Shown here one piece after another: positions 1,315 to 58,700 of a DNA stretch of 64,000 nt. How positions within the stretch are numbered: position 1 is the first letter of the stretch; every line of letters begins with the position of its first letter. The translations under genes were made by a program, and so were the position numbers. The notes beneath the pieces were generated by a model. That model saw only the letters and a program-made list of their open reading frames with translations. It was not told the DNA's origin and did no database searches. The stretch is from assembly GCA_032358255.1 (NCBI GenBank), contig JAULBX010014537.1, positions 31,170-95,169 on the forward strand. Direction: 5' to 3'. The DNA is from Heterotrichella gracilis (Eukaryota; Sar; Xanthophyceae; Tribonematales; Xanthonemataceae).

Positions 1315-4300
1315 GGCACCGACACCAAGCTCTCAGGCCACTTCACCTATTCCTCCCTCCCCGACTTCACCGCCGGTACCCCTCTGCGATGCACCAACCG
1401 GGGGGAGGTCCTGGCCTGGTTGGCGGCACTGGGTGCAGTCGACCCCGCCAATGAGCTCACCCTTAACCTGCCCATGCTGTCCCCCGATGCCATGCGGCGC
1501 CTGCAGTCCCGGGACCCCCTGTGGGCGCGGCCCGAGCTGGATAGGACATATGACTCGTACAGGTGGGGAGTGATGGTGGGGGGGGGGGGCGGCTGTGGTG
1601 GTGGTGTGGTGGTGGTGGTGGTGCAAGGTTGGGTCCGGAGGTCATGGTGCGGGATCCGCTGTGGGCTGATCCGGAGCTACAACTCTTAGGATGGGGGGCG
1701 TGGTGTGGCGCTGGTGCTGGTGCTGATGATGAAGCACTGGCTCAAGCCATAGGGCACGTGGCTGAAACCTCAGAAAAACCCTAAACCCTAAACCCTAAAC
1801 CCTAAATCTAAGAGTTATAGAGAGGGCCCTTTGGGGCATGTCACTCGCATTCCCCTTGCGTGAGAGGCAAAAATGCTCTTAATGGACTGAAACCCTGTAC
1901 AAACCCTAAGCCCTGCCTTGAGGGAGGAGAGCGGCAAGCGCCCTTAAGCGACCGAAACCTTAGACAAACCCTACACCCTTGCTTTGCAGGGAGGAGAGCG
2001 GCAAGTACCCCGACGGGCGCCATTACAAGCGGTTCTACCTCATTGACGAGGCCACGGGGGCGGAGCGGCTGGCGGTGAAGGCTGAGGATGGCGTGCGGAG
2101 GGATCGCAGGTGGGTGGTGGTGGTGGTGGTGGTCATGGTGGTTGTGGTAAGGGGGGGTGGAGTGGGGGGTGAGGACCCCAAGGACCAGTGTGGCCCCTGG
2201 TGGGGTGTGAGCACGTTGCATGAACCAGCTGGGGTGTGGTGCGGTCTGGGTGGTGTGCACATTGAACATCCAAACCCTAGAACCCCCTACAGAACAAAGT
2301 GGTGCTGGGTGTGGATCTGACATGGGTGCCCTGTAGTGTGGTGTGGGCAACGTGAATGCGTATATAGAAGCCCGGAACTCTCAACCTTCAATTGCGGAGT
2401 AGGTGCCAGTACAGGGCCACGAAGGGCCTCAACCCTAAATCCTAACCCTAAACCCTAAACCCTAAATCTGCGCAGGTATCAGTACAAGGCTGACGAGAGC
2501 CTGGGGGGCTGCAGCTTTGAGAATGGGCGGGAGGTGCTGGAATGGATTAGCTTCCTCATCGGCAAGCACATACCGGCCCTAGCGGTGCCACCACGGGTGA
2601 GTGCAGGGCTGTGGTGGGTGTCGGCGTGGGAGCAGACATGATCTATATGATATATCAGTGGTGGTGGGTGCCAGCCCATGTGCACGGGGGTGGCGGTGGC
2701 GCGTGTGTGAGCGAGTGTGGTTTGTTTGAGAAATGCGGGAGTGGATCAGCTTTGTGTAAAAAACTATGGGATTGAATGTAAACTTTAAAAACAAGTCAAA
2801 CAATCAGCGCTATTTCTAGCAGATACTGTGCCATGCCGGTTGCTGTCGACAGAAGCTTTGTGTTTACAATAGCACAACGTGTGACTTGGCTCCACCCTCC
2901 CCTCGTGCAGCCCACCAACCCCGGCAAGCGACGAGAGAGGGCCTCAAAAGCCCAACCCATGCTGGCCGGGGCTGCGTACGACAGGTGCGGCACTAGCCCT
3001 TTGCCCCTGTGTACCCCACATCTGCAACTGTTTAGGGTTTAGGGTTTACAATGCTGCCCAGTCCAATGTGCCTGGGCCGGCTCCATCGTGACTGTCCTCA
3101 AAATTCCTGGGGATCCATAGAAACCATTCAATCCCTGGAATCCCTGAAACTCCCTGTTGTCTGCAACTGGTCTTGCTCCTGCTGTCCTGCTCCCCCAAAA
3201 TGATACGGGGTCAAACTGGGTTGCACATCCTGTTGATGCGCACATCTGGGGCCCTGTGCAAGCATGGGCTGTCATCTTGATCCACGATGAGCTCATCGTT
3301 TTAGGGAGCATCCACCAGTACGGCACGAGGACCTGATTGTTTTATTTCTCATTCCCAGGTGCGGCGTGTGCGGGGGGTTGGGCCACGCAGCCCAGCAGTG
3401 CCCCTCGGCAGCCACCTTCGCCCACATGCAGCAGCAGCAGCAGCAACAGCAAGGGGGAAGGGGGATGCAGCAACAACAGGGCGGGGCTCACCAGCCGCCG
3501 CTGTATGCCGTCAGCCCCAGCCAGGAAGTCAGGGTGCGTGACCTAAGCCTATGCTATAATTCTAACCCCAAAGTGTTGTGAGTTAGGGCAAGGTGCGTGG
3601 GGAGCCCAATTTGAGCATTCAAGTTGGGTGACTAATCAGAGTTGTGTGTCAATTTGGCCGCATACAATTGTCTGGTACAATATTGGTAATCGACAAAAAC
3701 GGGTTGTACCACATGGTATTTGGCTATGGGTTGAAAGCCCACCACCACCACCTCCTCACGCAGCCTCACATCACCCCTTCCCCACCCTTGGACAATCCTC
3801 CCCCCCTCGCCCCACCCTGTTAACCACCCAACACACAAACCTCCACCACCCCCCGCCTACCCTCTCCCTGGTTTTACACCCCCCAGCCAACCCCCCTGCC
3901 AGGCTTGCTTCCAGCCCTACCCTGACCTCCTCCAGTGCATGACCGCAATGCCGTGTGACCCCACAGTGACCCAATTCAGGGCATGGGGGGTGCAGCTATC
4001 ATGCCGCATCAGCGATTCGCCCCCACCCGCTAATAATACCCACCACCCCTCCACCCATGCTTGAACAAACACCTCCTCTCCCGACCACATCGCCCATTTC
4101 TAACACCCCACCCCCACCCCCAAGGCTTGCTTCCAGCCCTACCCCGACCTCCTGCAGTGGGTGACCGCCATGCCTGACGACCCCACAGTGACCCAGTTCA
4201 GGGCCTGGGGGGTGCAGTTATCGTGCCACATCAGCGACGCCCCCCCCTCCGACCCCTCGGTACCCTGGACACCCACCCAGGAGGCGGTGGCTGCGCTGCG

Positions 4301-5021
4301 CCGCATGGCCGACTACCCGGTGTCGCTGGAGCTGCTGGAGCAGAGCCAGGTGGGTTTAGGTTTTAGGGTCCAGGGTCCAGGGTTTAGGGCTTCTATTTGA
4401 AGTATCGGGTTTCGCTTGCGCCGCATGGCTGACTACCCGGTCTCGCTGGCCCTACTGGGACAGAGCCAGGTGGGTTTAGGGTCCAGGGTTTAGGGTGCAG
4501 GGTTTAGGGTTTCTATTTGAAGTGTCCGGTGTTGCTGGCGCTGGTGGTGGTGGTGGTGGTGGTTGGGTTGTGGGTGTGAGTGTGGTTCTGGTGGGATAGT
4601 TTGATCACTGTGTTGCTGGCTGTGCTTGGGTGGTGCTGCTGGTGGTGATGTGGTGGGAATCTGTTTGGCGTATCCAGCGTCGTTGGTGCTGCTGGAGCAG
4701 AGCCAGGTGAGTTAGGGTTTAGGGTTCAGGATTTAGGGTTCATATGCGAAGTGTCCGGTGTCGATTGGGCTGCTGGTGCCGGGGACGATTGCGTACATGC
4801 CTGCACCACTGCCCCACAACGCCACGAACACCCACCGCCACACACCCACCCACCCACCCACCCCACCCCTCCAGGTGTCGCGCCCCGTCGCGCTGCTGCG
4901 CACCCACCCGAGCCACGAGGTTGCCTCACACGCAGAGTCCCTCGCTGCCAGGTGGCGCGCGTCTGCCGCTGCGGCGCTGCAGCACGCGACAGCCGCCCTG
5001 CAAGGGGGGGAGTATAAGTAA
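1315..5021 (+). CDS. TFIIS N-terminal (LW) domain protein with CCHC zinc knuckle, 5' end unresolved
   Basis: Seven exons join in one frame: about 1315-1562, 1990-2109, 2476-2596, 2911-2984, 3359-3533, 4125-4349 and 4875-5021 (370 codons including the stop). The last two exons encode a TFIIS N-terminal/LW-type helical bundle: an ALRRMADYPVSLELLEQS segment, then VSRPVALLRTHP and LAARWRASA. That fold is found in transcription elongation and Mediator-associated factors, so a nuclear role is inferred. Exon 5 holds a CCHC zinc knuckle (CGVC-x4-H-x4-C) followed by a Gln/Gly-rich stretch. The N-terminal part has two related segments (see findings) with no family I recognise. An ATG at 1114 is in frame through the CACACC tract, but the tract looks like an acceptor, so the true start may lie upstream. 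Introns carry partial exon copies and CCCTAAA blocks. Confidence 0.75.
1849..1945 (+). repeat. two partial copies of the exon-2 start
   Basis: The acceptor and first bases of the exon at 1990 (GGAGGAGAGCGGCAAG) are repeated at about 1918, and more weakly at about 1850. Each copy is followed by an AAACCY-rich stretch before the next unit, with a period of about 65-70 bp. Confidence 0.65.
3899..4024 (+). repeat. upstream copy of the exon at 4125
   Basis: About 125 bp, starting with the CAGGCTTGCTTCCAGCCCTA acceptor region, closely repeats the first part of the exon at 4125-4349 but stops partway. It has several substitutions. It could act as a decoy or alternative acceptor. Confidence 0.85.
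4417..4706 (+). repeat. downstream copies of the end of the exon at 4349
   Basis: The 3' end of the exon, with its CAGAGCCAG|GT donor, is repeated at 4417-4469 and again, shorter, at 4679-4706. Each copy is followed by GTTTAGGG-type repeats. The intervening intron is GGT-rich. Confidence 0.85.
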
Positions 5022-6842: not shown

Positions 6843-9218
6843 ATGGCATTCACCTGCTTGCAAGCGCAGCCTTTTACGGCCAGCAAAGTCAGCAGCGTGC
6901 AAAACAGCCCCAGCAGGGTGACTGGGTTGCAACGGACACGCGTGGCCCGCCAAAACAGGGCAATGCTATCAGTGAGCAACGTGGCCGAGGGGGTTAAGGT
7001 GGAGAGCAAGCCAGGTACGAGGGCATCTTAACCCTGGACTGAACTGCCGAGGAGGGTGTGTTCTACTCCCTTGTTTTGTCAGCAGTTTGGGTAGAACATC
7101 CTTAGAAAACCTGTGTTTCCTGCTGGGGAGGCTATGGTTGTGTTGGGCGTGGTTTGAAACCGCAGCTTGGGTTTATGAACCCATGCCGCACTCCTCACTT
7201 CGCAGTGAGGAGTGCTACGGTGACACGTCAGACCAAGGAAACCAAGGTGGAGGTTTCAATCAACCTGGATGGCACCGGCGTGTGTACCTCCAGTTCTCAG
7301 ATCCCGTTCCTGGACCACATGATGGACGTGAGTTCTGCAGCCATATGCATGCATGTGCACAGCGCTTGCTCAGCCTAGGCACAAGCAGTGGGCAAGACCA
7401 GGTGGGCACCCTGCTTTGCACAAGCAACTCCAAGCAGGTGCATACTTGGCAGTGCTTGTACCAAGTCGCCCTGGGCACAGCACTTGCTTATACAGTTTTA
7501 CATGGTCCAGCCTTGACAGGTGCTGGGTGGGTGGAGGGCATGGTATTGCAAGCAAAACCTCAACTATTGTCGTTCTGGAACGCAACCTACCCTTTTCACT
7601 ATCTGCCTGCACCACAACCACGCCATTCCTCCTCGCTGTAGCCACTGGCTTTCCCAAACCCTATATTCTCAACCCTAAACTCTTCCTGCAGCAACTGGCC
7701 TCCCACGGCCTGTTCAACGTGATGGTGCAAGCAGAGGGCGACACCTGGATCGATGACCACCACACCAACGAGGACATCGGCCTGGCACTGGGGACAGCGC
7801 TGGCGCAGGCGCTGGGCGACCGTAAGGGGATTGTGCGGTTCGGGGACTTCTCTGCGCCCCTGGATGAGGCGCTGGTGCACGTGGTGCTGGTAGGTGGTGG
7901 GTGGTGGTGGTGGTGGTGGTGGTGGTGGTGGTGGTGGTGGTGGTGGGTGCACGGCGGGGGTGGGGGATGGTGGGTTCCGGGTGGCAAAGGCGGTGCATGG
8001 CGTTTGGTGGGCGTTGGGTGGTGACGGGTGGCCGGGGACAGCCCTGGCGCAGGCGCTGGGCGACCGCAAGAGGAGGGTTTAGGAACGTTTTTGCTCCCCT
8101 GGATGAGGCGCTGGTGCACGTGGTGCTGGTAGGTGGCGGTGGGGTGGAGTGTGGTGGGTGGCGTTTGGTGGTGGTGGGTGGCTTAGGATCCGGCTGGCAC
8201 AGAGCCGCAAGGGGATTGTGCGGTTTGGGGACCTCTCTGCGCCTCTGGATGAGGTGGTGGTAGGTGGGGGTGGGGTGATGAGTGAGTATTTGCTTTCCAG
8301 CTTCGAAGCTAGCATGTCTGGGTATGCCTCACCCCAGTCCTAAAGCCAAGGCTTAACCGACACTGTTTCCAGTGTGGCAGGTGGTGGCCAACCAGTCGTG
8401 CCGCTTACCGCACTTTCATGCTCCCCATTTTATCCCGTCGCAAAGTTCAGGGAAATTCGAAAAGTATTGCTACCGTGAGTATTCGAACCTGCGACCCCTT
8501 GCTTAGTTGACCTCAAGACTCAACTCAAACTCAGGTGCTGAGCCAACGGCTGGGTCGACCGTTGGAGGGTAGGGTGATGATGCTGGGTTACTAGCGTTGG
8601 TCCCTGCCGAATGTGGGTGGGGTGGGGGTTGCACAGTGAGAGTTTGGTATATAGAGTACACTTTGGCCTACTGGTAACTATTCTCGGACTGACCATTCTC
8701 GCATCCTCTCCCCAGGACCTGTCCGGGCGCCCCCACCTGAGCTGTGACCTGGACATCCCCACTGAGCGCATCGGCACCTATGACACGCAGCTTGTGGAGC
8801 ACTTTTTCCAGTCCATGGTCAACACATCGGGCATGACGCTGCACATACGGCAGGTGGGTGGGGCTTGTGGTGGGTGAGTAGCTGGTGGGGGTGGGGGGTG
8901 GGTTGGTGCATTGCTGATGTCGCTTGTGGTTGGCTCAATGCTCGGTTTGCTTTTGTATGTTTTCTCGGTAGGTTTCACGTGTTTCTGGAGACTTTTTCCA
9001 TGTGGTTGTTCAACACGCATCAGGCATGACGCTGCATGTATAGTACGCGTTTAAACCCTAAACCCTATCCCCCTCTGCAGCTTGCTGGGAAGAACTCCCA
9101 CCACATAGTGGAGGCCACCTTTAAGGCGTTTGCGCGCGCGCTGCGGCAGGCATGCGAGGCAGACCCGCGCAGGGGGGGCCAGATCGCAAGCTCCAAGGGG
9201 GTGCTCACACAGCAATGA
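6843..9218 (+). CDS. HISN5: imidazoleglycerol-phosphate dehydratase, plastid
   Basis: Five exons (about 6843-7014, 7206-7327, 7692-7889, 8716-8853, 9081-9218) give 255 aa in one frame. The enzyme dehydrates imidazole glycerol phosphate to imidazole acetol phosphate in histidine synthesis. Family marks are FLDHMMD in exon 2, the metal-binding [14 protein letters not shown] in exon 3, HLSCDLDIP and HFFQSMVN in exon 4, and [19 protein letters not shown] in exon 5. The first 50 or so residues are rich in Ser, Thr, Arg and Gln and poor in acidic residues, fitting a chloroplast transit peptide; import is inferred. The ATG at 6843 is the first that gives this leader. Intron 3 holds a SINE copy and two partial copies of exon 3; intron 4 holds a degraded copy of the end of exon 4. 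Confidence 0.95.
7893..7948. repeat. (GGT)n microsatellite at an intron start
   Basis: About 15 GGT/TGG units directly follow the donor of HISN5 exon 3. Confidence 0.9.
8037..8262 (+). repeat. two partial copies of HISN5 exon 3 in its downstream intron
   Basis: At 8037-8128 and 8196-8262 the sequence repeats the end of exon 3, from the ACAGC(G/C)CTGGCGCAG region to the CTGGTAGGTGG donor, with small deletions. The second copy has lost part of the middle. A further copy of the end of exon 4 lies at about 8985-9040. Confidence 0.85.
8400..8569 (-). mobile_element. tRNA-derived SINE-like element
   Basis: The 89 bp at 8481-8569, read on the minus strand, match 63911-63999 (plus strand) at about 87 of 89 positions. 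The unit has an RNA polymerase III A-box-like TGGCTCAGCACCTGAG and a B-box-like GGTTCGAAT at tRNA-like spacing, so it derives from a tRNA. Sequence beyond the B box (about 8400-8480) may be the element body. It sits in HISN5 intron 3. I see no poly(A) tail or clear target-site duplication, so the 3' boundary is unsure. Confidence 0.7.
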
Positions 9219-10697: not shown

Positions 10698-18620
<7,923 letters not shown>

Positions 18621-22705: not shown

Positions 22706-22736
22706 AGTTTTGTTGGCGTGGGGCAAGGGAAGACGC

Positions 22737-24387: not shown

Positions 24388-24417
24388 GCGCCCTGCCCAC
24401 TACTTCCAACCCAAACT

Positions 24418-25032: not shown

Positions 25033-25069
25033 AGTTTTGTTGTGCTGTGGACAAGCCTAAGCGGGGAGC

Positions 25070-39557: not shown

Positions 39558-41355
39558 GGGGCTAGGACGCCGTTCTCAGTAGCTTGCTGAGCGGGGGTTG
39601 GAGGGGGCTGGCGCTCAGATCCAACAGGCGGCAGCGCAGCGTGGGGGGGTCAGATGGGCCAGTGTGCGCAGCAGGACCGGGTGGGTGATGGGGGACACAC
39701 ACGTGTAGGAGGGCCACCTCTTTCCAGGCCGGTGGGGAGTGGGGAGTGGTGTGGGAAGGGCGGCCACTACGCATTGTTGTTCGGGTGCAGGAGGGCACTG
39801 GGCGGGTGGTAGGGGGAGATGCCATGCGCTGCTGGCTTCAATGGAGACTCCGCTTAGCTGGAGCGATGCATCTACCTGCGGTGCCTGCAAGGGTCATTTA
39901 AGGGAAGGGGCGGGTTGGGTTGGGTACCTCTGCTAGCTAGCTGCATCCACTGCAGGAGATTGGCCAGCGGGGATCCCACGCTAGCTGCTGCTGGGGCAGC
40001 GATGGGAAGGGCTTATCTAGTGCTGAAGGGTTTACATGGTGCCCGTAGACAGCCTGTTCTGGGCTGGTTAATATTTGTCTGTCGTGACAAATGGGGCAAG
40101 CGGCAGTGTGGTGGGTAGCTGGTGTACTGTGTTGGATATTTTAGGGCGCGGGATGACCATAGCAATCGCATAGCTTTTGCAGTGAAGCTTACAGCATGCA
40201 TCCAGGACTAAACAATGGCCCGCCTTTGCTGGGCCAGCCAGTATGACGGATCCAGGGTGCTGATATGAGTCCTTGGGGTGAATCTGGCATACCTGGTGGG
40301 GATCTCCCTGCCAATGGCCCATTCAGTGAGGTTTTGGCATCGCTCAGTGGTTGCATGTGCTGGCCATTAAGTTCAAGCTTCTGGGCACAGCTCCGTTGTC
40401 GGGTGCATACCGCAGGTGTGCGGCTTTGAGACTCTTAAGTCATGCGCGATATTGCAGCTGATTTTAGTTTAATTTGACTCAGCCAATTTGACAAGTGTAT
40501 GTATACACTGCGGCAACTCGTATAATCCTATCAAGGAAAAGGTTTTAGGCTGAACGTGGGCACCCCAAATGGTAGTGATTGATTGTCCATTGGATTTGAA
40601 ATCAGACGGCGCTGGCCGCACCCCTTAGTTGTACAGTGTACGCTTAACACCGTGTAAGCAATGCAGTTGCCTTTGTCAAATTTCGGAAATTTGTGGTCCC
40701 ATTATACAGAAGTGCTGCCGCAACGGTGCCACCGTGCCGCGCAGATATATCGGGCCCCACCGTGCCACGCAGATATATAGGGCCCCATTGGATGTATGCA
40801 TGCATGCCGCTGCAATGGTGAACAAATGGCTGCCGGTGGCGTTATAATTGGACCAATCGATTCAATCTATTGCCAACATGGACAGCGGCTGATTCCTGCC
40901 CAAGTATTGCAACGGTAACAGATATATCTTGCCATTATGTGCTCCCACGCTGTGCTGCCGGCAGAAGTCTTAGAATAGAAAGAAGATAAATAAGAGAGAA
41001 GAAGAAATAAAGGGGACGGAGGTAGGGGCCACTGGATCGCACCAGGGCACCAACCAGCCAGAACGGCTGGTCATAAATAAGGTATGCATCAAGCCTACGG
41101 TAGGAAAAACAGGCCAAAAGTATGGGTCCTCACTGCCTAGGAAGACTGCGAGGGGTAAACTGTATTGCTAATAGCCATAAAAAACATGGCTCTCCGAGTC
41201 AACAATTAAACCAAATGGAAAGTGCAGGGGTGAGAGATCAGATGCCCTCCCTTTCTGCTTACCCCTTGGGCCAAAGTACGTCCAAGCCGCCTGAGGTACA
41301 GCTTGCACCAAGCGCTGGACTCCTGGCGAGATACCGCATGGGTTCAGTGCCAACG
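39558..41355. other. intergenic region between convergent DnaJ and DUF268 gene
   Basis: No gene is supported. An A/G-rich patch lies at about 40975-41015, and a duplicated GATATAT-GGGCCCCA-type 30-mer at about 40742-40795. Confidence 0.55.
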
Positions 41356-43587: not shown

Positions 43588-44846
43588 CTGTGTAGCCCCG
43601 GAGATGCCGGACGGTAGCAGGCAAGTTTAGAACCACTGTGCATCCCTCGCTCTAAAATACGTGTGTGTCCCAGCACTACAGTAACTTGCATAAATCACAG
43701 ACATCTTGAGACCCTCTATGCCACTGCACAAAAGCCACGGTGTCGTTGCAAATCTGGTACTTTGAAAGATGTGCTCTCGCTGTGAAGTCTGGGGGAGAGG
43801 GGAGAGGGGAAGAGGCACCTTTGGGGTGGACCTGGAGTGCGCTTCTAGATGTTGGTTTCTGGTTGGTTGCTTGGAATGGTTGGTGGTTTTTAACCCACTA
43901 CCGTATTGGTGGAAGGCAAACTCCAATATGTGCTCGCAGCACGCCCGAAATGGCATGAGGCACCATTGCAACCATGCACATTGCACTGGCTGGCGAAATA
44001 TGGGTTCCACACTCCTTTCTGTCTGCCAAAGCCCCACCATCATCAAAGCAGCCGCTGTCAGGAGGAGAAAAGATTGATACTAGCAGGATGAACCCTCAAT
44101 TTCCGATGCCATGCTCAGCAAGGTCGTTTTGCCGCCATGCCCATGCTCAGCCATGGTATTGCCCAGCCAGGGTTGTTTTGCCACCGTGTGCTAGCCAACC
44201 AGTCACAACAATTACACAACTAGATTCTTACAATGATTCTGTATTCTGATGACATGTGGAGGATATTAACTGCATTAAACATTGCCAAGCAAGTTGACAG
44301 TCACAGACCGGTCTAGATGTTGGCGGGTCCTTCCCCAACAGCTGTTAAGGGTTTCTGAAGGGTTCAATCATGTACCTTCACCACAGCTCAATGACAGGTA
44401 GCAAGATCACAGTACTGCCTACAGAGTTTCATCCTCTCCTACAAATGCGCCACAGAACGCCAGCCAAACCGCTACTGTCCCTGGCTGCTTGTGCTTTATT
44501 GAGCGCTGTGGCCCAAGACTGTGTACTTCTACAACTCAGTGTGGGCTACTCCACAGGCCCAAACCCTTGCGCAGGGTCCCCACGCCCTTGCAAACCATCG
44601 CTCCACCCTAGCGCAGGGACGACAAAACCCTTGCCTGAAATCGCTGGAGCCCATATGCTTTGCACCCAAATGCTGTCGCCATCACCCAGTCAGCCCGATT
44701 GGACCCACGGCATAGAAACCCTAGCCAGGGAAGTGGACATGGCGCAAATTCCTCCCTCACTGCGCTGCGGCCATCGTCCAGTGAGGCCGATGGAGCCATC
44801 CTTGGATAAGGGGAGCAGAGCAGCAAATCCACAGCAACTCCCCCCC
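43588..44846. other. region between DUF268 5' side and the DUF3411 gene
   Basis: Missing 5' exon(s) of the DUF268 gene should be here, but none could be assigned. A direct repeat containing CCATGCTCAGC and GTTTTGCC lies at about 44107-44190. Confidence 0.4.
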
Positions 44847-47844
44847 TCACTGCGCCCCTATCCTCTCCCTAAACACCGGCTCCTGCACCCTGCCTGCCCT
44901 GGGCTGCGCCAGGTGCATGGCCTTGGCCAACCTCACCCAGGAGTAGGCGCCCACCCAGTTGTTTGCAAAGCGCAGCCCAATGGATCCCGCCTTGGACAGC
45001 GGGCCAGGGAAGTATGTGTAGAGCAGGTCCTCCCCTGCATTCACCAGGTTGTAGCGCAGGTTGCTGCTGACCGCCATGAAGTAGAGCCAGCCGATGCCTG
45101 GAGGGAGGGGGAGGGAAGGGGATGAGCTCGCGAGTGGATGGGCGGGTAACTTTGCGGGTGGGTGTGACCTGGTTCAACCATAAAACCAACCCTAAACCCT
45201 ACGCACTTGTGCAGAGCTGGCAGACAGAGTGACGCAGCCACTGAGCAGGGCGGGTAGATATATAAAAAAACGTGTAATGAACAATTGCCTTCTATTGTGA
45301 GCGGCTCCCTTCTGGCATCAACTCCTACCAACATCCCATGCATCACACTTCCCAGCACCCACATGCATACCACACAATCTCCAGCACCGCACCTGTGCCC
45401 AGCACCGACAGCGTCATGGCAGGGGCAGGGAACGCAGGGTGCAGCCTCTCCCTCACATTGGTCAGCCCCATGACCCTGACCATGACCACAACCTCCACAC
45501 ACCCACCACCACATAATCCCCCATACACACTGCCACCACCACACAACCGCCATCATATCCCTCCCTCCCCCAAACCAACCCACACCCACCTGTGCCCAGC
45601 ACTGACTGCGTCATGGCAGGCGCAGAGAAGGCGGGGTCCAGGCGCTCATCCACATTAGTCAGCCCCATGACCATGAACATGACCACAACCTCCACACACC
45701 CCCCTTACACCCCACCGCCGCCACCATCCACCACCAGCACCGCACCTGTGCCCAGCACCGACTGCGTCATGGCAGGCGCAGAGAAGGCGGGGTCCAGGCG
45801 CTCCCTCACATTGGTCAGCCCCGTCACCAGCGCTGTGCCCATGCAGCCCATGGCAAAGCCGATGCACCCGTACTGCACCGCCTTCACTGCAAGGCAGGAG
45901 CAGCGCTGCAGGAGGGAGGGTGGGCTGGTTACTACTCACTCGAGACAGACGTGCTCCAACACAGCCAATACTTTTAGGCACGTAAATTATTAGCACACGC
46001 CAGAGATATGCATACAGCCAGATGAGCAGCCATGCATCAACCATCCTCATCGGATGGGCAGCTGTGGATGTATCGATGTTTGAATTGCACGAGCAGGGGT
46101 CCTGCTAAGTGAAAGCAGCCCATGCGCCCCTGGGCTAACATGCTCCCTAAAACCCGAGCCCTGTTCAGGGTGAGGGCTCATATTTTAGGATGTATCGCAC
46201 CTGTAGGAGGGTGAAGGCGGGCTTGCCAAGGGGGGGTCGCTGGAAGAAGTGCGAGGGGAGGGAGGCCAGGTGGGAGCGCAGGGGTCCTCGGGCGGGGGCC
46301 GCGGGGCGGAGCGTGGGCGCCAGTAGGTACACCAGTGCAAAATCGTTCAGCAGGGAGACGGCAATCTGCGGTGCAGCATGTTGAGTGTGTGAGGTGGAAT
46401 TGCGTGGTGGTGATGAGTATGATGGGGGGAAATGGATGTGCATTTGGGGCCAGCTTGAGGGGGTACAGGGTGGGGCTATGCGGGCTTGTGAGATCTAGTG
46501 CATGCGCTGCGCGCGTGGTGCTGCAAGCAGTGGCCAGCTATGCTTCCTAGACAAGCATGGCAGGCCCCAATGTTGCGAGGTCGGCGCTTGTGCCACCCAC
46601 CCGCCTGGCAGCACACAATCCCTACACCCTACACCTGGCAGCACAAGCACACAAACCCTAAACCCTGAACCCACCTGGCAGAACACAACCCCAGCTCGTG
46701 CAGGAAGCGCTGCCCACGGCCCGCCCACAAACCCTGAACCCTAAATCTGGCAGCACACAAACCCTAACCTTCACACTTGACCCCAAACCCACCTGGCAGA
46801 ACACAAACTCCAGCTCGTGCAGGAAGCGCTGACCGCGCGCCGCCCAGTTCACCCCCAGTATGATTGCGCAGTCAATGCCGCACTCCACTGCCAGCTTGTA
46901 CACAAAGTCGGGGTCGGCGGCCATGCGGTCCCGCACGCCAACAGCCACGCTGCGGTGGTGGGAGAGAGGGGTGGGTGGCGGTAGAGGGAAGAGGGGGGCA
47001 ATGGCCTCGGTGGTGGGGTGAGGGATGTGAGGGAGCATATGCCACAGGAGGTGCATGGCTACTAAGGTGGTGCATTGCAAATGTGATCCTCAAGCCAGCG
47101 GCATCGCATTAGAGCCCGGCTGCATGTGCGACACCGGTGCAGCATATGTGCGGCGCGCCAAGCAGGCAACCATGCACAGCAGTGAGGGGTCAAGGGGACA
47201 GGCACGTACGATTTGAAGGGGTTGACCTGCCAGGTGTCGTCATCCGCGTCCCCAAACGAGTGGTGGTCCCCGTTGCCCCCGCCGCCGCCCCCCGTGGGGG
47301 GCTTGCCGCGCCCGTCCCCGCCCCCCCCGCCCCCCTCCGCCTGCGTTGTGGGCTGCTCCACCACCACCGTCGGCTGCGGGTGGTGGTGGCGGCGATACTT
47401 GTTCTGCATGACTGAGCTCCCCGCCTCCAGTGTGGCTGCGTGCACGTGTGCACTCCCCCTGCCAGAGGCTGTTACCACCGCCTGCGGCGGCGCTGGCGAT
47501 GCTCCGCCCAGCTGACTAAATTTGGCGTGGCGGACAGGTGGGAAATGGCGCACACTCGAGTGCGCACACCCCCTGCCCCAGACTGCGGTCAAAGGCGCCC
47601 CTGGTCGCGGCGCTGGTGCTGATGCTGGTGATGCTCCACCCGTGCAAGGAGACCGAGTGTGCACCCCCTTGCCAGACGCTAGGGTCAGCGCTGGTGGTGG
47701 TGGCGCTGGTGCTATTGCTGTTCCAGCCAATCGATGGGTGCGATGGGGAGGAGGGAAGTGTCTCGCGGTCAGGTAGGGTGGGTGGGATACAAATGCGGCC
47801 GGCGGGCTGCGAGGGGGTTGTATGCCGCCATGGTGCGCGCGCAT
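44847..47844 (-). CDS. RETICULATA-related (DUF3411) plastid membrane protein
   Basis: Five exons (about 47844-47210, 46949-46793, 46365-46201, 45905-45746, 45097-44847) give 455 aa in frame from ATG 47844. The family acts in plastid development and metabolite supply in plants; its exact activity is unknown. A long, Pro/Ser/Arg-rich leader fits a transit peptide. It is followed by the Gly/Asp-rich stretch typical of the family, then FVYKLAVECGIDCAIILGV, FLHELEFVFCQ, IAVSLLNDFALVYLLAPTL, VQYGCIGFAMGCMGTALVTG, FMAVSSNLRYNLVNAGEDLL and ANNWVGAYSWVRLAKAM. Several of these are hydrophobic enough to span a membrane. Introns 2 and 4 contain well-preserved partial exon copies. Confidence 0.9.
45375..45695 (-). 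repeat. two in-frame copies of the 3' half of DUF3411 exon 4
   Basis: Copies at about 45375-45485 and 45590-45695 repeat the exon end plus donor at 45746 (CACCTGTGCCCAGCAC(C/T)GAC, GTCATGGCAGG, CATT(A/G)GTCAGCCCC). The second copy is nearly identical over 90 bp. The flanking ACCACAACCTCCACACACC intron piece is duplicated as well. Both keep the open frame and a donor. Confidence 0.92.
46598..46730 (-). repeat. copies of the DUF3411 exon-2 end
   Basis: At 46676-46730 the exon end and donor recur (CACCTGGCAGAACACAA, CAGCTCGTGCAGGAAGCGCTG), followed by AAACCCTAAACCC-like sequence. A shorter remnant lies at about 46598-46625. Confidence 0.9.
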
Positions 47845-47877
47845 CCTGGTGTCACGCGCGGGGTTTTAGGGTTTTCC

Positions 47878-48402
47878 TCACTCCGGTCCCGGGGGAGTGG
47901 GTGGGGATTTGGATGCCTGCGGGGGCTCCCTTGCCTCTGCGTCCTTGAGTATGGAGACTATCTTCTGCTCGCACTCGATCTGCTTCTTGCGGTTGTCTTT
48001 CTGGGACCGGGTGAGCTTGGAGAGTCCCCAGGGCTTGTTCCAGAGCCTGCCACCTGCGAAGAAGGTGGGGGTAGGTATGGGTTCAGGGTTTGGGCTTGGG
48101 ATTTGGGGTTACAGTGCAGGATTGAGGGAGGCTGCAGGGCGTGTTCCAGAGCCACCTGCAGGAGGGTATAGGGTATGGGGTTCAGGGTTTGGGTGAGGGA
48201 TTTGGGGTTGTGGTGTAGGGTTGAGGGTGGCCCCCCAGGGCTTGTTACCAGAGCCCGCCACCCGCGGGAGGGTATAGGTTTGAGGGGGCTGGCTTGCTAG
48301 TGCGAAGCTAAGGAGGCCCCAGGGGCATGTAAAAGAGCCCCCTGTACCTTTCACCCACGGGTGGTTGGCAAGGTCAGCGGTTGCATGCATACATACGACG
48401 AT
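47878..48402 (-). CDS. short unrecognised protein, two exons, tentative
   Basis: An exon at about 48056-47878 reads GGRLWNKPWGLSKLTRSQKD, then NRKKQIECEQKIVSILKDAE and a Pro-rich tail to TGA. It joins in phase to an upstream exon ending in DLANHPWVK|G (donor near 48345). If it starts at the ATG near 48387 the product is about 75 aa. It is Lys/Glu-rich and probably helical. Family unknown. The exon start is copied twice in the intron (about 48130-48165 and 48235-48272), which supports it being a genuine exon edge. It could instead belong to a longer gene with exons upstream. Confidence 0.45.
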
Positions 48403-49704
48403 GCATGGCAGGAAAAGGCTACATTTCAAAGCAGTGCACATAGAAGGCGCAGTACTTTGCGTGCACCAGGCGATCACGCTGTTAAAACCAGCGGGTGGAT
48501 GCGATCCAGGGGAGAGGACCACCACACTCCACATGCATACGAATGGGCAGCTACACCCAGACCAGCGCACGTCTGTACCAATATGCGTCACTTGAAAGAC
48601 GTGTGACCAAGCGAACAAACTCGCGTAAGAGAGGGATCCGGGGGGTGCGGAACGATTGGTAGCTGGGCAGCGGTCAGCCAATGTGTGAAGGAGAGTGGCT
48701 GTGATGCAATTGGATTGGATGTCAACCGTGGCATAACCCACGCACCTGTAGTCTTGTAAACGACGAGCAAGCTACGTGTGCCAAACACCATCAGGCTTCA
48801 CGGCACATCGGCGTGCGAGCAAGTGCCAGTTGGGTAGAGTGGAAGTGATGCTGTGTCGCATGCACAGGGACGGTTTATACGGCGGAAGGGTTGCCAGAAC
48901 ACAATGTGCAGGTTGATATATCCGATAACGGTAGAGTAGAGGCTGGATCGGGTTCGTTGGGATGCGCGAGTCGAAACGTAGAGACGTGCACCGCAGCGGT
49001 CCAACGACAGCTTTTGTGTGTGCTCCCTTTGGCCAGGAAGCTTTGCGAACACCACTCGAGCTTTCGGGCGCGTATGACCGACATACAGGCTGATTTTCCC
49101 TCCCCGTCATTGCAACAGTTGAATTCCCACCTGGAGCGGTGGAGGGTGGGCCGCCCAGCGCCGACGGCGCCATGTGGAGTGTGATAGGGTTGATGAGAAC
49201 CACTTCCAGTTCAAGGCCGATGGACGTTTCGCTCCAAGTTGACGTCTTCAACACCGCAACCGTGCAAAACGTGGCTGCTAGGAGTTATCTTATTGCACGT
49301 TGCTGCTCGCTGCCTGTGCACACACCGCTTCGCCTAGTTTCGAAAGTGGGCATCTGCACATTGCGTTCAAACTTCAAATATTTGGCGGGTAAAGCTTGTC
49401 ACTCACCTCGCTGCGTACTTGGGCTCGCCAAGGGCAATCCGCGTTTGCTTTGTGTGAAGAATATCTTTTTACTGGGTACCTTGTTGCTGCACAGCGTGCT
49501 TGCTCTAGCAATGCTTCGCGGGTGCTTCCACGAAACCATATGCATGCATAGTCCCTGCCTCGGTGCTCCTTTTTGCTAAGAAAGCCCCCGCATCGCCAGC
49601 CTCTTAACCTAATCCTTTTCGAAACTCAAGCGCGACAGTATCGGGTTTTCATGCGCCTTGTGCGCGGCTGAGGCGTGACCTCCGAACGCAGCACGCCCCG
49701 CAGC
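48403..49704. other. intergenic region before SMC1
   Basis: The region is divergent between the short minus-strand gene and SMC1. Open frames on both strands are present but show no family features; no gene is supported. Confidence 0.45.
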
Positions 49705-52700
49705 ATGGCATCGCCAATTTCCACCTCCAGCGATGGCGAGCCCTCCACCTCTGGGGGCGCGCCGCCCGCCGTCCAGGGCAGGATAGTCCGCCTGGAGGTG
49801 GACAACTTCAAATCCTACCGTGGGTTTCAGCACATCGGCCCCTTCCACGACTTCACAGCGGTGATCGGGCCCAACGGGTCTGGCAAGTCCAACCTCATGG
49901 ACGCCATCAGCTTCGTCCTGGGGGTCCCCACCAGCCACCTGCGAGGAAACCTGAAGGAGCTGCTGTACAGTAACTCTGACGGAGGGACGGAGGAAGACCG
50001 GCCTAAGAGGGGGTATGTCAAGCTAGTGTTCCAACCAGGGCCATCGGAGCCCCTGCTGAACTTCACGAGGCATATCGTGCCGTCTGGGTCGGAGGAGACC
50101 TACTCCTCAGCCTACAAAATCAACGACAGGACGGTGAGCAGGGAGGCCTACAACTCCAAGCTGGAGTCGTATGGCATCCTGGTGAAAGCCAGGAACTTCC
50201 TGGTGTTCCAGGTAAGGACTGCAAGCCAGTGTAAGCCAACACAAGTCGCCCAGACTGAGTTGCTGACTCTCACAACTGCCCTCAACCCTAGCGCTTGCCT
50301 ACTGGCACTTGTTCCCTTCTGTTGCTGGACATACCACTTCTGCATCTTTCGTATAGTTGGTTATTGATAAGACGCACAAGCCATATAGCAAGATTTTAGG
50401 AGTCAGCTTGGCACCCACAAAACTAGGCAGTCCTTGACCATCCTGCCACCACTCTGCTGGTTCATGTACGCACAGAAGGTGAAACATTCCAAATACCTGG
50501 GTAGCCAACGTGGCCCTGGGCCCCCACCTTTGCCCCCAAAGCACCCTACTCACCATGGTCCGAAGCACCACCCCACCCACCTTTGTCCCACGCACCAAGC
50601 ACCACACCACCCACTGGCGCAGGGCGACATCGAGAGCGTGGCTGGCATGAACGCCAAGGGCCTGACCCAGCTGTTTGAGCACTACACTTGAAATACCCCA
50701 ATCAATGGGTAGCCAATGTGGCCCTGGGCCCCGATCTAGTTCCAAACACCCTACCTACCGTTGTTTCATGCACCCTACCCACCTTTTACCACGCCTCACC
50801 CCACCACCCACCCACCACTGCCGCAGGGCGACATCGAGAGCGTGGCAGGCATGAACGCCAAGGGCCTGACCCAGCTGTTTGAGCACGTGTGCGGGTCGGA
50901 CCTGCTGAAGAAGGAGTATGAGGAGCTGGAGCTCAAGGTGAAGGAGTGCGAGAGCCAGACCGCCTACGTGTTTGCCAAGAAGAAGAACCTGAACGCCGAG
51001 ACGAAGCAGAAGAAGGAGCAAAAGGAGGAGGCGGAGAGGCACATTAAGCTGCAGGAGGAGCTGGTGCGGGCGCTGAATACCCTAAACCCTGAACCCTCAG
51101 CCTTAAACCCTATACCTAAAACCCTGAAGGAGCTGGTGGGTGCACGTGCAAGGCACCGGGATGAAAGGGGCACCTTTGGAGTGCAGGGTTTGTGCCAGAA
51201 GCATCTGGGACAATCCTCCAACCCACCAGCTATACCGCGTGGGCCATGACACCCTTTGAGGATTTACACTTACATGGACATTTACAACAGCATCCACATC
51301 CATGTCCAAATGGGCATTCACACTAAGATTCACTACTCAATCCACATCCCCATCCGCTTCCAAGAATACACTAACACTCCATCCACATCTAAGCTCACAC
51401 TCCATTCACATTCCTATCGCAGGAGGAGCTGAAGCAGTACTACCTGTTCCGGCTCTACCACATGGACCAGGATACACATGAGTGAACTTAGCATTCATAC
51501 TTTCATCACCACCTCATCAACATCCATACCCACTTTCACACTCCATCCACATCCAAGTTCAACTCCCCTCCCTTTCAGTCCTTGCATCCAGTCCCCTGCC
51601 CGGGATCCCCCCCCCCCCCCCCCAATATTCGAATATCGCACTCATTCCACTCTCCTCGCTGCCGCAGGAGGAACTGAAGCAGCAGTACTACCTGTTCCAG
51701 CTGTACCACGTTGACCAGGACATCGCCCGCGCCACGTCAGCGCTGGAGGATCAGGAGAGGGCACTGGAGGAGGCGCAGGCCCAGGTGGACAGCGTGGGTG
51801 CGGAGGTTGAGGCCAGGACGCGGGAGCAGGCCAAGGTTGTCAAGGAGAAGCTGCTGCTGGAGAAGGGCAACAAGAAGAAGCTGGGGGAGGTGGAGAAGCT
51901 GGTGCGTACATAGCAATGTAAAGAAAATGGATAAGAAACAGCTTTATGAACATGCCACGTGCTGGCGTCTCCTTGAACTTTGAGGGGCCATGCAAATGTC
52001 CTTCCTACCTGCTTCATTTCTCCTCTGCAGCTCAGGGCGTCTGGAGGCTGAAGCCAGCAAAATTGGGTAGTCAAAACGAGAAATACTAATGCGTAGTATT
52101 TACTAACGAAATTATTACTGTTATATAGGTCATGAACTTAATGAGTGTAGTATACTATCTGATACCCCTTATTATTTACAAGGTAATATTCATTTAATAT
52201 ACCTAATCATCTCCTGCAGCGCCCTGCCATGTTGCGCCTGGAGGCGGAGGTGAAGACGCTTGGGCGCAAGGTGGACCAGGGGAAGAAGGCGCTGGCAGCA
52301 AAGGGGAAGGCGTGCGCTGAGCAGGGGGCCAAACTGGCGCAGCTGAAGCAGCAGATGCACAAGCTGAAGGAAGGTGGGGCGCAAATTCACAGCAATACTG
52401 TTAATCCTGTTGCGCCTGTCACAGAAAGCACAGTTTTTTAGATTGAGACGTAGTGCATGCTTTTCAATGTTAGCATACCTACATAAAAGGTGGGGCAACG
52501 GGCCATGCTGGCGTAGCTGAGGCAGCAGATGCACAAGCTGCAGGAGGTGGGGTTCAAAATCCAGAGCAATACTGCTGAATCCTGTTGCGCCTGTCATAGC
52601 AGGCACAGGTTTTCGTTTGCATGCTTCCAGGCCTCGCCCCCACTGTCACCCACAGACAGCCCCATGTCATCCATCCTCCACTCAAAACCCCACCTCACCC

Positions 52701-55700
52701 CCCCACCCGCAGCCCGCGAGGAGCACGCCGCCTCCACCTCTGCTGCCGCCAGCGGCCAGGGCAAGCTTCGGTTATCTGATGAGCTTGATCGCGAGTATGA
52801 GGCAATCAAGGCGGAAGCTGCCGCTAAGACGGCGGGCCCGGCGCAGCAGCGGGCCATGCTGGAGAGTGCACTGCAGGTAGGGTTTTGTGGTGAAGGTGGG
52901 TGCATCGCCAGGGGTTTCGGTGGGCCAGGCCGCTAAAACCTCAATCCTAAACCCTAAACTTGAAACCCTGTGTGCTGCTCCTTGGGGCTCAGGTGCTTAG
53001 CCTGCACACCAAGGAGCAGGAGCTACAAACCCTATACCCTAAACCTCAGACTTCAAACCCTAAACCCTAAACTTCTCTGTGTGTGTGTGTGTGTTGCAGG
53101 CCCAGGTGCTGAGCCTGCGTACTAAGGAGCAGGAGCTACGAACCCTATGCCCTAAACCTCAGACTTAAAACCCTCAACCCTAAACTTCAATGTGTGTATG
53201 TGTTGCAGGCCCAGGTGCTTAGCCTGCACACCAAGGAGCAGGAGCTGCAAGGCATTGTGGACAGGATGGCGGAGCTAGGTGCGTGGGGGTGGGGGTGTGC
53301 GGGTGTGGGGTGGGTGGGGAGTATGGCGGGTCCGGGGGGATGCGTGTAGATGGACGGGAATGGGTACATGCCGTGGTTGCGGTGGGTTTTGGAGGAGGCA
53401 AAGCATATTCTGAGCGCTGAACACGTCACACTCTAGCGAAGCGTTTCCCGCCATGCAAACCCTCCCCAATCGCCAAAACCGCCCTACACCCTAATTAAGG
53501 GTTTCCCTTCCCCGTCCCCCTGCAGAGGCCGAGCTGCAGGAGAGCAAGCGCATCCAGGGGGAGCTTAATAAGATTATGCCTGAGAAGCAGCAGAAGAAGG
53601 CTGAGCTGGAGCAGGAAATTGGCAGGCTGGATGACGACTACCGCAAGCACGGGTGCGCACAATCCCTACATGCTAAAACCGGAAACCCTAAACCCCAAAC
53701 TGCCAACTGGAGCAGGAGATTGGCAGGCTGGATGACGACTACCGCAAGCACGGGTGTGGGGGAAATGAAATTTATAACGATAAATATAGATTGCGATCAT
53801 GTTAGAAATGACTTCAGCTAGTTATATTACAGAATCCAAGGTTTAGGGTTTATTGACATGGTCCAAGCATTGCAGCTGTTTGTGCCCTACACACCCTGGG
53901 CAAGACTGCAAAAGCTTTTCCCTATTATGTTGCGCCAGGGCCCGAGTCAGAAACCCTAAACCCTAGACCCCTACTCGCAGTGGCCAGGCTGAGGTGCTGC
54001 GGAAGCGCACAAGGGCCACTTGGAATGGCTGCCCGAGTCAGAATCCCTAAACCCTAAAACCCTCACTCGCAGGGGTCAGACTGAGGTGCTGCGCCTGAAG
54101 CTGAGCCGCGTGGTTGAGGAACTGGGTGAGGCGCGGCGCGATCGTGGTCAGAACCAGCAGCTGGTGGAGCGCATGCGGGTGGTGGAGGAGCTAAAGGGGA
54201 GCATACCAGGTGGGGGGGTGGGGGAGGAAATGGTGGGCGTGTCAGGTGGGGTGGCAGAAAGAGGGGTGTGGGCGGTGGGTGATGCGGTGGCTGAGACCAA
54301 GGTGTGAGCGTGGTCAGAACCAGCAGCTGGTGGAGGGCATGCGGGTGGTGGAGGAGATCAAGGGGAGCATACCAGGTGGGTGTGGGGGGTGGGAGAGGAG
54401 GGCACCGGGGTATTGGGTTGGTGGTGAGAAGGGTAAGACTCTTGTGCGCAAGATGCTTCGTAGGGAGGTTCATTTGGGTGGTGGCGGCAATCAAGAGTGG
54501 CGGGAATGACAAGCTGTCCCCCCTGTGTGCAGGCGTGTACGGACCATAATTAAGTATACACCTATTAAAGTGACAAAATACTGCAAATGCACTTTGGGCA
54601 TTGACAACGTGCTCGTTCTACCCCTGTGCTCAGGCGTGTTTGGGCGGGTGTGCGACCTCTCCAAGGTCGATTCCTCCACCTATCAGACAGCCATGGGGTT
54701 GGTCATGGGCCACAACTCTACTCATAATAATTGTACCCACCAAAATTGACCAAAAAACAACGGAAATCCCACAACTGCAAATTGACCATTGCCAACCTCC
54801 TCGTTCTTCCCCTGTGTGCAGGCGTGTTTGGGCGCGTGTGCGACCTCTCCAAGGTGGTCTCCTCCACCTACCACACAGCGATGGGTGTGGTCATGGGCCA
54901 CAACTTCGACGCAGTTCTTGTAGACACCGATGAGACTGTGAAGGCAGTGCTGCGGGCCCTCAAGGGGAGGGAGGGGGGGGTGGACAGGGAGGGGAGGGCG
55001 CGGGGGGGGCTGGGGCGCATGCAGGTCATCCCGCTCAGTACCATCAAGGTGGGTGGGTGGCGATGGCGTTTTCAGGCTTTTAGGGGTTGTTTCTGTTGTT
55101 GTGGGGTGTTGTGTCGTGTGTAGGGGCTGGGTGCATTGTGCACCCTGTTGAGCAATTCAAGGTAGGCGGGTAATATATGAGAAGCGCATGTAGGCTACTA
55201 TGTATGTTATTGCATGTTGCTCAACCTCTTAAATCCTATGAACAGATTGCCTACATGCCGTTTTACCAATATTGGTGCCGTGTACAAAAATAGACTTATC
55301 GACAGTTCCCACCCTGTCCCAGGCCAAGCCCATCAACGACCAGCTGCGGTCCCTGGGATGCGGCTCCAAGTTGGCAATCGACCTGCTGGAATTTGATAAG
55401 AAGTACGAGCGCGCCTTCAACTACATCTGCGGGTAAGGAGTCGCAGGGAACGCTCATTGCTTGTGAATTCGTACTTACATGTGTTCCAGCGCTGCCATAA
55501 ATCCTTAGTGCACAGGAATAACCAAATTGCTTGTTTTTTGCTCTCTATTGTGTGTTCCCAGTTTATGTATTCTGCCCACTCCTTCCCCCCTTGCCGCAAC
55601 ACTCTCGTATGCGACACTGCCGCAGAGGCCAAGCATCTCGCCTGAGATCAAATCTACATCGTTCTATTTCCTTTTTACCTCTTTCCTTAATCATGCCACC

Positions 55701-58700
55701 CCCCCTTGCAGTAACACGCTCATTTGCGACACCGACGCAGAGGCGAAACACCTTGCCTGGGATGGGGCCACGCGCCGACAGACCGTGTCCCTGGAGGGCA
55801 CCAAATTTGCCAAAAATGGGGCCGTGACGGGGGGGTCGGTGGCGGGGCCCAAAAAGGGGGACAAGGGGAAGAAGGGAGGGGACGGCAAGCGGGGGAACAA
55901 GTTTGATGCGGTGGAGATTGAGAGGAAGATCGCTGCGCTGAAGAAGGTGGGTGTGGATTGCATGGGACCTTACACACTAACCCCTACCCTCCCACCCGCA
56001 GCACCTTTGCCCCCCAGCTCTTTGTGCAGCAACTGGGGAGTGAGAGGCTGCCAACACTTCCCTAACCCTAAACCCTGAACAGCGGCTCTGCGCAGTACCG
56101 ATCGGCCTCGGGGCCTTTCACCCCTTCCCTTCCCTCACATATCTCCCCCCACCCAACCCCACGCGGTACCGTACCTCTCCTCCCCTCTATCTTCCTTGAT
56201 TCACCCGCACCCTTCCCCCCCACCCCGTTTCCCCCCTTGTCCAGCAGTGCGAGGAGTGCGACGCCAAGCTCCAGCAGCTCCCCGACCTGCGCATCACCGA
56301 AACTCGCAAGCGCCAGGGCTCAGGTGGCGGAGCAGCCTCCGCCCTACCCTCCCCACCTCCCCTTGCCATTCCCCCCCTTACCTCCTTCCCCGGTTCCCCA
56401 TATCCCCCCATTTTTACCTGTTTTACCTTGTTCAGCAACGCGAGGAGTGCGACGCCAGGCTCCAGCAGCTGCCCGACCTGCGCACCACCGAGACCCGCAA
56501 GCGCGATCTGGCTGCTGAGGTGGCGGAGCTGCAGGGGGTGGTGGACCGCCAGGGGGCGGAGCTGCGCAGGGCGCAGGAGAAGGAGGGGGAGTGCAGCGCT
56601 GACCTAGCGTCGCTGGCAACGGTGCGGAGGGGGGGTGGGGGTGCCTCATATACTTGGGTAGTCACATGCTTTCCAGCTTCATGTAAGGCTACGGTAAGTA
56701 TCCCGTAAAATATACACCACGTTTGCGCACTAAAGGCTCCTTGGCGGCGAAACCCTGCAGGGTTTAGGGTCTATGTAAAGATTGCGCCGCGTGAACAACA
56801 TCTTCAGCAACATCACCGACTGTAAGCCACCCGTGGCCAGCAGGCGTATGTACTCCCCCTCCATTATATCAATAAAATCCCAAACCCTAAAGGTGAATCT
56901 CTAAATCCTTGCAGGAGCGCGCTACCAAGGAGCCTGCGGTGATCGAGCTGCGGAAGCAGGTTGCGGCTGACGAGGCGCGCCTGGCCAAGATCCGCGCGCG
57001 CGTGAACGACATCTCTGACCGCATGTTTGCCCCTTTCAGCGCCAAAGTGGGTGTGGCGAACATTCGGGAGTATGAGGAGGGGGCTATCAAGGCCAAGAGG
57101 GAAGCCGCGGAGCAGGAGGCCAAGTTTGCAGCGCAGGTGCGCAACTGATCAATATAAAGTAAACTGAAAATTAAATGCTAAAGTGATCAGGTGTGAAACT
57201 GTCTTATTTATCTTTCCTACTGTAGTGATATTGAAATTTATTGAATGAATGAATGTCACACAGTCCTTAACATTGTGCCACAGTAGGAATACACAAGACA
57301 AAATGGTTGATTGGTAATTGACGACTTTTATCACCTCCACAGACACCCTAATTCTTACCCTACACGCCTGAATTCTTACCCTACACCCTAATTCTTACCC
57401 TACAAGCTGACGTGGCACTTGGGACATGTCTGCAGATGGTCAAGGTGGAAAACGAAATCCAGTTTGCTGAGCGCACTGATCCCCAGAAGGAGGTGGACAA
57501 GGCCGAGAAGGCATTGGAGAAGGACACAGCGGCACTGGCAAAGGCCAACGAGGTGCGTACGCAGCCCTGATACCCTAATGGAAACCCTAATCAAAGTTCT
57601 AATAAAAGTGGCATTGGAGTAGGATGAAGCTGCGCTGGCCAATGCCAACGAGGTAAGCAGCCCTGGAACGGAACCCTGATGAATTCCCTAATGACAACCC
57701 TAATCAAACAGGCGCCGCCTCAGGTACCAGTACTTTTGCTACCCCTTAAACAGCGCAGAAAGCTGTCGCTACCTATCCATTTTTGCGAAGAAAATGGCCT
57801 GTTGGGTCGCTTCATCTTTGTGAGAGAAGGCATAACTGGCAACTACAGTAATCATTCTGACTTCTGCAGTAATAATACCAATCGTTGTAATCATTGCAGG
57901 AGCAAGGTGAAATGACAGCGTGAAGCTGCAGCTAATAGTAATCATTGTAATTCTTGCAGTAATCATACCAGTGATTGTAATCATTGCAGGAGCAAGGTGA
58001 ATGACAGCGTGAGGCTGCAGTAACCATTGTAATTTCTGTAGTAATCGTTGCAACCTGCAATAATTTAATACCAATACGTTGTGATCGTTGCAGGAGCTGT
58101 TCAATGTGAAAGAACAGTCTGATGCCGCCCAAGGGGAGATTGACAAGGTGCTTGCCAGGGCAGGGGAGCTGCAGGCACAGGCGGAGGCCCTGGGGGAGGA
58201 GATTGCGGAAATCAAGAAGAAGGGGACAAGGGCGAAGAATGAGGGTAGGTCCATCCCATTGTTTTTGGCCGCCCAGGTTACCTTGCGTTAGGGTTTAGGG
58301 TTTGGGGTTTGTAGCTGCACCTGTTTTTGGTGGCTGTTGTGCAGTTAATGATGTCAGGTGTGGCATCAGCAGCCAATAGGGTGTGTCAATGGGGCCATGT
58401 TGGCAATGATACAGGCCAACTGTAGTAGACCGTGCCTGTAGGGATTGATTAACATTAATTCTCCGTATTTTCTCCTACACAATCTGTTACAATAGGGAAT
58501 TGCCTGTAGACAGGGGTCAAGCTGTGTGCTTGCATGTGATCGCATGTGATCACATTGTAATGACCTGTCTAATGGTGGGTTGTATCTTTGCAGTTGACAA
58601 GGTGCGGCGCGGCATCAACAGCAAGCAGGGGGCGCTGGGCAACCTGAGGAGTAGGAGGAAGGACATTGTGGAGGCGGCAACTATCGCACAGGTGCGCAGC

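Follow-up and report, generated by a model that had tools for sequence, protein, structure and literature searches.

Decayed direct copies of exon edges, many accompanied by telomere-like repeats, in the introns of Heterotrichella gracilis

Introns in a 64,000-nucleotide stretch of Heterotrichella gracilis DNA (assembly GCA_032358255.1, contig JAULBX010014537.1, positions 31,170 to 95,169; hereafter the window) carry degraded copies of the ends and starts of their own flanking exons, splice site included, and in the 224-kb sample to which the window belongs about one third of the sequences that separate copy from original resemble the telomere repeat. Such exon-edge copies are confirmed as real and are not specific to the window. 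They lie in direct orientation, decay as unconstrained sequence and are more strongly focused on exon edges than a simulated null of random viable duplications. The original prediction, made on the window, had suggested a recurrent process, perhaps break repair with telomere-like filler; the recurrence holds up, in that copy density, edge focus and telomere association all survive controls, and its interpretation as a whole is partly supported. The best reading we can infer is that DNA breaks at exon edges or close to them and that the overlapping ends undergo fill-in before they are joined, frequently with the addition of telomere-type filler; we hold it tentatively, at slightly less than an even chance.

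The source assembly comprises 68.5 Mb in 903 contigs. Our first sample, 224 kb in total, combined the window with eight regions of 20 kb, and all counts refer to it unless the window or the replicate is named; two bacterial-looking regions (C100 and C180) were excluded from all counts. Gene models came from a purpose-written gene finder, self-trained on the sequence of these nine regions and used without RNA data; it took some copies for exons and fused H3 to the ICME model. The models contain 320 introns with a median length of 296 bases and the splice consensus CAG/GTGNG and TGCAG/G (slash, exon-intron junction). Each edge query, made of 80 exon and 10 intron bases, was aligned with its own intron and counted as a match at a score ≥ 36.

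This alignment, which the original prediction had proposed, yielded matches at 45/320 donor (5') and 34/320 acceptor (3') edges, or 79 of 640 edges of both kinds, against none in 3200 comparisons of the same queries with other introns at the same threshold. Reversed own introns matched at one of 640 edges (0/320 and 1/320). In a 50-kb replicate (loci L033–L037), with gene-model parameters and threshold unchanged, 19 of 65 introns contained 23 matches between them; there were none in 650 comparisons with other introns and none in reversed introns. After refinement, one of the 79 matches and three of the 23 had no exon part. The window contains 32 edge matches, distributed over 10 of its 13 gene models; judged by position, these models are the ten genes for which the original prediction had reported copies. 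One match (653–714), lacking an exon part and preceded by a doubtful first exon, was discounted. The H2B, H2A and 61.9–63.6 kb models of the window have no edge copies. Elsewhere, copies occur in C3, C20, C40, C60, C80, C120 and C250 and in replicate loci L033–L036, and none were found in C10 or replicate locus L037. Copy load varies widely among genes and correlates with telomere-like blocks (rho 0.72, 28 genes). The 20 kb of C10 hold 21 introns and no edge copy, compared with 73 of 320 copy-bearing introns overall, so describing introns as built from such copies, as had been done at first, was an overstatement. Copy-bearing introns are longer than copy-free ones (median 397 vs 274 bases), in line with the suggestion that copies lengthen introns, but longer introns are also bigger targets for copies.

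Copies had also been reported on both strands, which is true of the genes but not of the copies relative to their exons. Self-BLAST of the window returned 61 near pairs, of which 56 are direct; by position, the 5 inverted ones correspond to one telomere-block pair, three pairs of a histone 3' element and one other 39-bp histone-cluster pair, none of them an exon-edge copy. Across the nine regions, near pairs were direct in 130 cases and inverted in 6. An assembly artefact is scarcely credible as the source of the copies: the assembly is fragmented and includes bacterial-looking contigs, but the copies show many degrees of divergence from their exons, in substitutions as well as indels, have unique filler and are found again in contigs unrelated to one another. 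No second haplotype of the SMC1 region was found. Copying from mRNA was rejected as well; 60 introns matched an exon-exon junction query, only four matches crossed the junction by > 8 bases on both sides, and those four extend past it by short, consensus-like or gapped stretches.

The edges might be conspicuous only because exons are conserved and introns short, with the copies themselves arising by ordinary random tandem duplication. Repeat coverage from the 130 direct near pairs is 1.8% of bases in intergenic sequence, 9.3% in exons and 8.7% in introns, and edge pairs stay detectable for longer because exon sequence protects one member. We simulated 1500 viable random duplications with decay, under the same detection, assuming uniform ages and lethality of wholly exonic and whole-exon duplications. 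Detected events divided about 1:1 (462 intron-only and 429 edge events), whereas the observed pairs comprise 13 intron-only and 79 exon-to-intron cases (p 7e-14 against the simulation). Non-exonic pairs make up 16 of 130 overall and 3 of 38 at ≥ 88% identity, and of those three, two are telomere tracts and one has an acceptor-like context. Thus, the edge focus exceeds the simulated null, and random duplication with ascertainment bias is disfavoured as a full account; it also leaves the telomere association unexplained. A circular shift of pairs against the gene models was kinder to it: 62 pairs lay over an edge against 46 expected (sd 6.5), a mild excess although it equals the largest value in 1000 shifts, the signal being weaker because exons are dense. 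An exon-middle control gave 0/87 matches and had little power, as the edges of these long exons matched in just 3/87 cases. All considered, we regard random duplication as improbable.

The 79 matches comprise 18 head-to-tail copies (filler < 20 bases) and 61 separated from the original by filler of ≥ 20 bases, with filler lengths ranging from 0 to 315 bases. Head-to-tail copies have exon and intron parts of similar length (exon part larger in 8/18), a symmetry about the edge that random duplication would also produce. Among copies with filler, the intron part measured ≤ 15 bases in 45/61 cases, as if the inner end of the copy hugged the splice site, but in only 5/16 replicate cases (difference p 0.003). 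The asymmetry of the first sample was thus not replicated; we treat it as unproven and do not rely on it, and the lack of edge skew in the replicate again suits random duplication.

Because an insertion that duplicates its target leaves filler flanked by direct repeats, one could propose that a retro or introner-like element inserts at splice sites and makes long target-site duplications. We consider this highly improbable, because comparison of 56 fillers with their own and up to 12 other neighbourhoods disclosed no filler family besides telomere repeats, filler lengths vary over the whole range given above, and no intron of ≥ 60 bases starts with the downstream exon start. Templating of fillers from nearby sequence was likewise rejected, and template switching, raised in the original prediction, finds little support as their source: local matches nearby beat the control for 14/56 fillers in direct and 2/56 in inverted orientation, several of the strongest lying in introns with more than one copy.

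Comparison of the exon parts of copies with filler to the exons gives mismatch rates of 0.098, 0.085 and 0.188 at codon positions 1, 2 and 3, respectively. Of 56 exon-part indels (51 in copies with filler, 5 in head-to-tail copies), 7 have a length divisible by three. This pattern fits a freely mutating copy beside a protein-constrained exon; the copies are debris, not alternative exons. The proposal that they supply spare splice sites, or are retained as such or as regulatory decoys, is accordingly unsupported, with positions 1 and 2 mutating alike and indels shifting the frame, and although many of the displayed young copies keep their GT or AG, we rate it as even less credible than element insertion. 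In introns with several copies, the nearest copy was the more similar one in 10 of 14 cases, which is not decisive for an age order.

The link to telomeres rests on the heptamer CCCTAAA, whose arrays start ≤ 7 bases from the beginning of six contigs (C70, C140, C526, C609, C717 and C770) and which is therefore the telomere repeat; intron blocks share it, so that their repeat matches the species' own telomere. Arrays of similar length also occur elsewhere, at least one (in C120) being internal. We counted 107 telomere-like blocks in 110.7 kb of intron and 4 in the 35 kb that separate complete gene models (p 9e-9 for the difference in density), and none in exons or in shuffled introns. Of the 73 copy-bearing introns, 43 contain a block, whereas the figure for introns without a copy is 51 of 247 (odds ratio 5.5, p 1.5e-9), an association that persists within genes (3.1, z 4.3). 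Telomere-like joints, as first described, are thus upheld as an association, but only 21 of 65 fillers are telomere-like. A telomere score ≥ 24 was reached by 20 of 61 fillers of ≥ 20 bp, about fourfold the 5.15 expected when copy-free introns are matched for position and length, compared with 3 of 76 segments in the 60 nt beyond the copy (2.2 expected). The same score was reached by 10 of the 18 head-to-tail units (1.4 expected). Replicate counts were 5/16 for fillers and 3/23 beyond the copy; these are raw counts with no matched expectation.

Blocks keep to splice sites even where no copy is detected. In copy-free introns, 30 of 47 blocks lie ≤ 50 bases from a splice site (18 expected), with G-type blocks nearer the 5' site in 19/21 cases and C-type blocks nearer the 3' site in 18/26 (p 7e-5). 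Copies and blocks are therefore both edge-focused, each by a separate test. The placement of the blocks in copy-free introns, which is as expected of a role in splicing, suggests a reversal of cause: the blocks, as splicing elements or leftovers, came first, proved fragile or stalled replication, and the edge was then duplicated by slippage or re-replication. The blocks lying within head-to-tail units speak for the same order. However, blocks that came first should provoke intron-side duplications just as commonly, and non-exonic pairs are rare; 6 of 26 C-type blocks in copy-free introns lie 7–25 bases from 5' sites; and the 60 nt past the copies show no second instance of the block. We judge this order of events possible but unlikely.

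Under the reading that we favour, DNA would break preferentially at or near exon-intron edges and leave single-stranded ends, tens to a few hundred bases long, that overlap; fill-in of the two and their subsequent joining would duplicate the overlap, that is, the exon edge with its splice site. The joint would often receive telomerase-type repeat addition or telomere-derived filler. The original edge would stay coding while the displaced intronic copy decayed neutrally, and breaks entirely within exons would be purged. Fill-in combined with telomere filler would account for the direct orientation, the filler and the decay. As to what breaks the edges, transcription-linked structures are our guess.

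Several observations weigh against this account. Two thirds of the fillers lack telomere-like sequence, and when all 65 are ranked against matched segments their mean rank comes to 0.39 (chance level, 0.5). Telomere excess is also seen 60–160 nt beyond the copies (10/73 vs 4.4 expected). The fall with copy age that insertion at the joint might predict is absent from the telomere score of fillers (rho 0.11, p 0.39), and the blocks at joints are of mixed polarity, agreeing only in part with what telomerase should leave. Where a block lies inside the repeated unit of head-to-tail copies, it must have preceded the duplication. Similarity to the sequence on the far side of the copy reaches p ≤ 0.05 in 17 of 60 fillers, where 3 would be expected, so that part of the filler group consists of decayed plain head-to-tail units, as random duplication would have it. 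The insertion itself is presumed, and the proposed steps do not explain why exon edges should break. A wider version, in which exon-intron junctions are break hot spots of this lineage, repaired by telomere-type end processing (telomerase plus fill-in), with introns growing outward from their own edges, is speculative and on balance doubtful.

The component processes have precedents. The CST-Pol alpha machinery that fills telomere ends also produces small tandem duplications at breaks with 3' overhangs (PMC8355091); short direct duplications at the joint and end joining are described there, and short direct duplication is present here too. Those breaks were induced in human and mouse cells, whereas our case has an exon-edge focus and telomere-like filler. 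Telomere repeats have been inserted at breaks during mammalian evolution, with target-site duplication at 6/130 rodent and 4/25 primate sites (PMC2246262). Telomerase-mediated interstitial telomeric sequences (PMC2246262 and PMC8537989) likewise place short telomere repeats at internal sites, but here the repeats are concentrated in introns near splice sites and many are accompanied by duplications. The 20 of 61 telomere-like fillers that stand between duplicated edges in the H. gracilis introns may mark insertions with such a target-site duplication.

Introns are recognised to be gained through tandem duplication and through staggered-break repair (PMC4974935 and PMC3443670), and these routes share with our case duplicated exon pieces or direct repeats at introns; here, in contrast, the copies are of an intron's own edges and sit in introns that already exist. 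The structure of an intron newly born from an exonic AGGT duplication was not found among our models: none of 320 introns (those < 60 bases being skipped) starts with the downstream exon start, and 4/320 end with a match to the upstream exon, all of which already have a donor-edge copy and two of which abut pseudo-exon models. The review PMC3443670 contains no word beginning 'telomer'. Introners (Huff 2016 and Gozashti 2022, as cited in PMC12730881) are comparable as a genome-wide intron-building process, but here a limited comparison revealed no shared element, and the filler is telomere-like or unique. Among the papers listed by searches of the open literature, none describes exon-edge copies joined to telomere-like filler in its title or the beginning of its abstract; the duplication and telomere-filler parts are known elsewhere, and their concentration at exon edges was not found in the literature searched.

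Most intron sequence is of unknown origin, and decayed edge copies are a datable residue that links the growth of introns with both DNA repair and telomere-type sequence. Their high density in one species offers a natural record of break positions in genes and makes a link between splicing, breaks and telomerase testable.

In the first part of the window, copies of acceptor edges 1990 (TFIIS-domain gene) and 4137 lie on the plus strand at 1875–1938 (identity 0.84) and 3876–4009 (95 exon and 34 intron bases, 0.90). Donor edge 4349 has a plus-strand head-to-tail copy at 4413–4530 with TTTAGGG within the unit, and a second copy from ∼4671. HISN5 carries plus-strand copies of donor edges 7889 (8039–8180) and 8853 (8983–9036). 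Minus-strand copies of LETM1 donor edges 11227, with telomere-like filler, and 11665 occupy 11048–11089 and 11555–11618. Further minus-strand copies follow for acceptor edge 13735 (13777–13836) and donor edge 14322 (14043–14161, with a shorter 97% copy in between). At 16084–16125 (minus), a 97.6% repeat of the exon end 16183–16224 is separated from it by 57 bp of filler with TTTAGGG repeats. This LETM1 exon end at 16183 reads CAG/GCAAGG and its copy CAG/GTAAGG, so the edge is possibly a GC donor whose copy retains GT. Acceptor edge 16352 and donor edge 17192 are copied at 16422–16526 and 17053–17102, both on the minus strand.

Farther along, copies were located for donor edges 20040 (mTERF-like gene; 20423–20507, plus), 28817 (28764–28791, minus, with 25 bp of TTTAGGG-type filler between) and 32323 (32403–32439, plus), and for acceptor edge 33735 (33624–33669, plus). 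The DnaJ gene, on the plus strand, has copies of acceptor edges 37615 (37528–37556, 0.96) and 39381 (39257–39305, 0.94) and, at 38138–38363, copies of donor edge 38098 in ∼111-bp units with TTTAGGG. Three minus-strand copies derive from donor edge 45590 in the RETICULATA-like region (45381–45471), donor edge 46793 (46616–46727, head-to-tail) and acceptor edge 48053 (48233–48266, 0.94, telomere-like filler between).

SMC1, on the plus strand, carries copies of acceptor edges 50827 (50498–50682), 51668 (51418–51472), 53209 (53025–53137, head-to-tail with CCCTAAA in the unit), 54073 (53940–54006), 54822 (54576–54717), 55712 (55585–55648) and 56436 (56235–56328), and of donor edges 52373 (52500–52613) and 57552 (57610–57708). 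Telomere-like filler at 53656–53706 leads from donor edge 53652 to its 98% copy at 53707–53756 (47 exon and 3 intron bases). Plus-strand tandem copies at 57847–58046 also match 58040–58128 across acceptor edge 58094. A degenerate direct repeat of ∼200 bp precedes the first gene (220–714) and is unrelated to any exon edge.

Pfam searches, run for 8 of the 13 window models, identified IGPD (HISN5), LETM1, DnaJ, RETICULATA-like, alpha/beta hydrolase (the gene first named ICME) and TFIIS-type helical bundle domains; the mTERF-like model had no Pfam hit. The RETICULATA-like domain, which we take to be the same as DUF3411, is divided between neighbouring models at 39872–45668 and 45705–49173. In the former, the RETICULATA-like part is short, falls under the Pfam cut-off and is fused to a DUF268 domain; possibly it is an edge copy that the gene finder mistook for coding sequence. 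The DnaJ model is ∼65% identical to green algal proteins (Elliptochloris, Coccomyxa and Symbiochloris), with no close relative among those hits, and this match points to a chlorophyte source. The excluded C100 and C180, two of ten sampled contigs, have a GC content of 36–37% and long open frames and look Bacteroidetes-like by eye; the assembly thus includes bacterial-looking contigs.

A near-identical stem-loop element with the core CTGGTGTTTTTTAACACCACC recurs in the window at 22673–22715, 24405–24450, 25000–25042 and 26599–26643. An Rfam scan of the window reported no family at the cut-off. Three of its copies closely follow the stop codons of histone genes, identified by eye as H2B, H2A and H3, and a further one lies at 26.6 kb; the element is likely a histone mRNA 3' processing signal.

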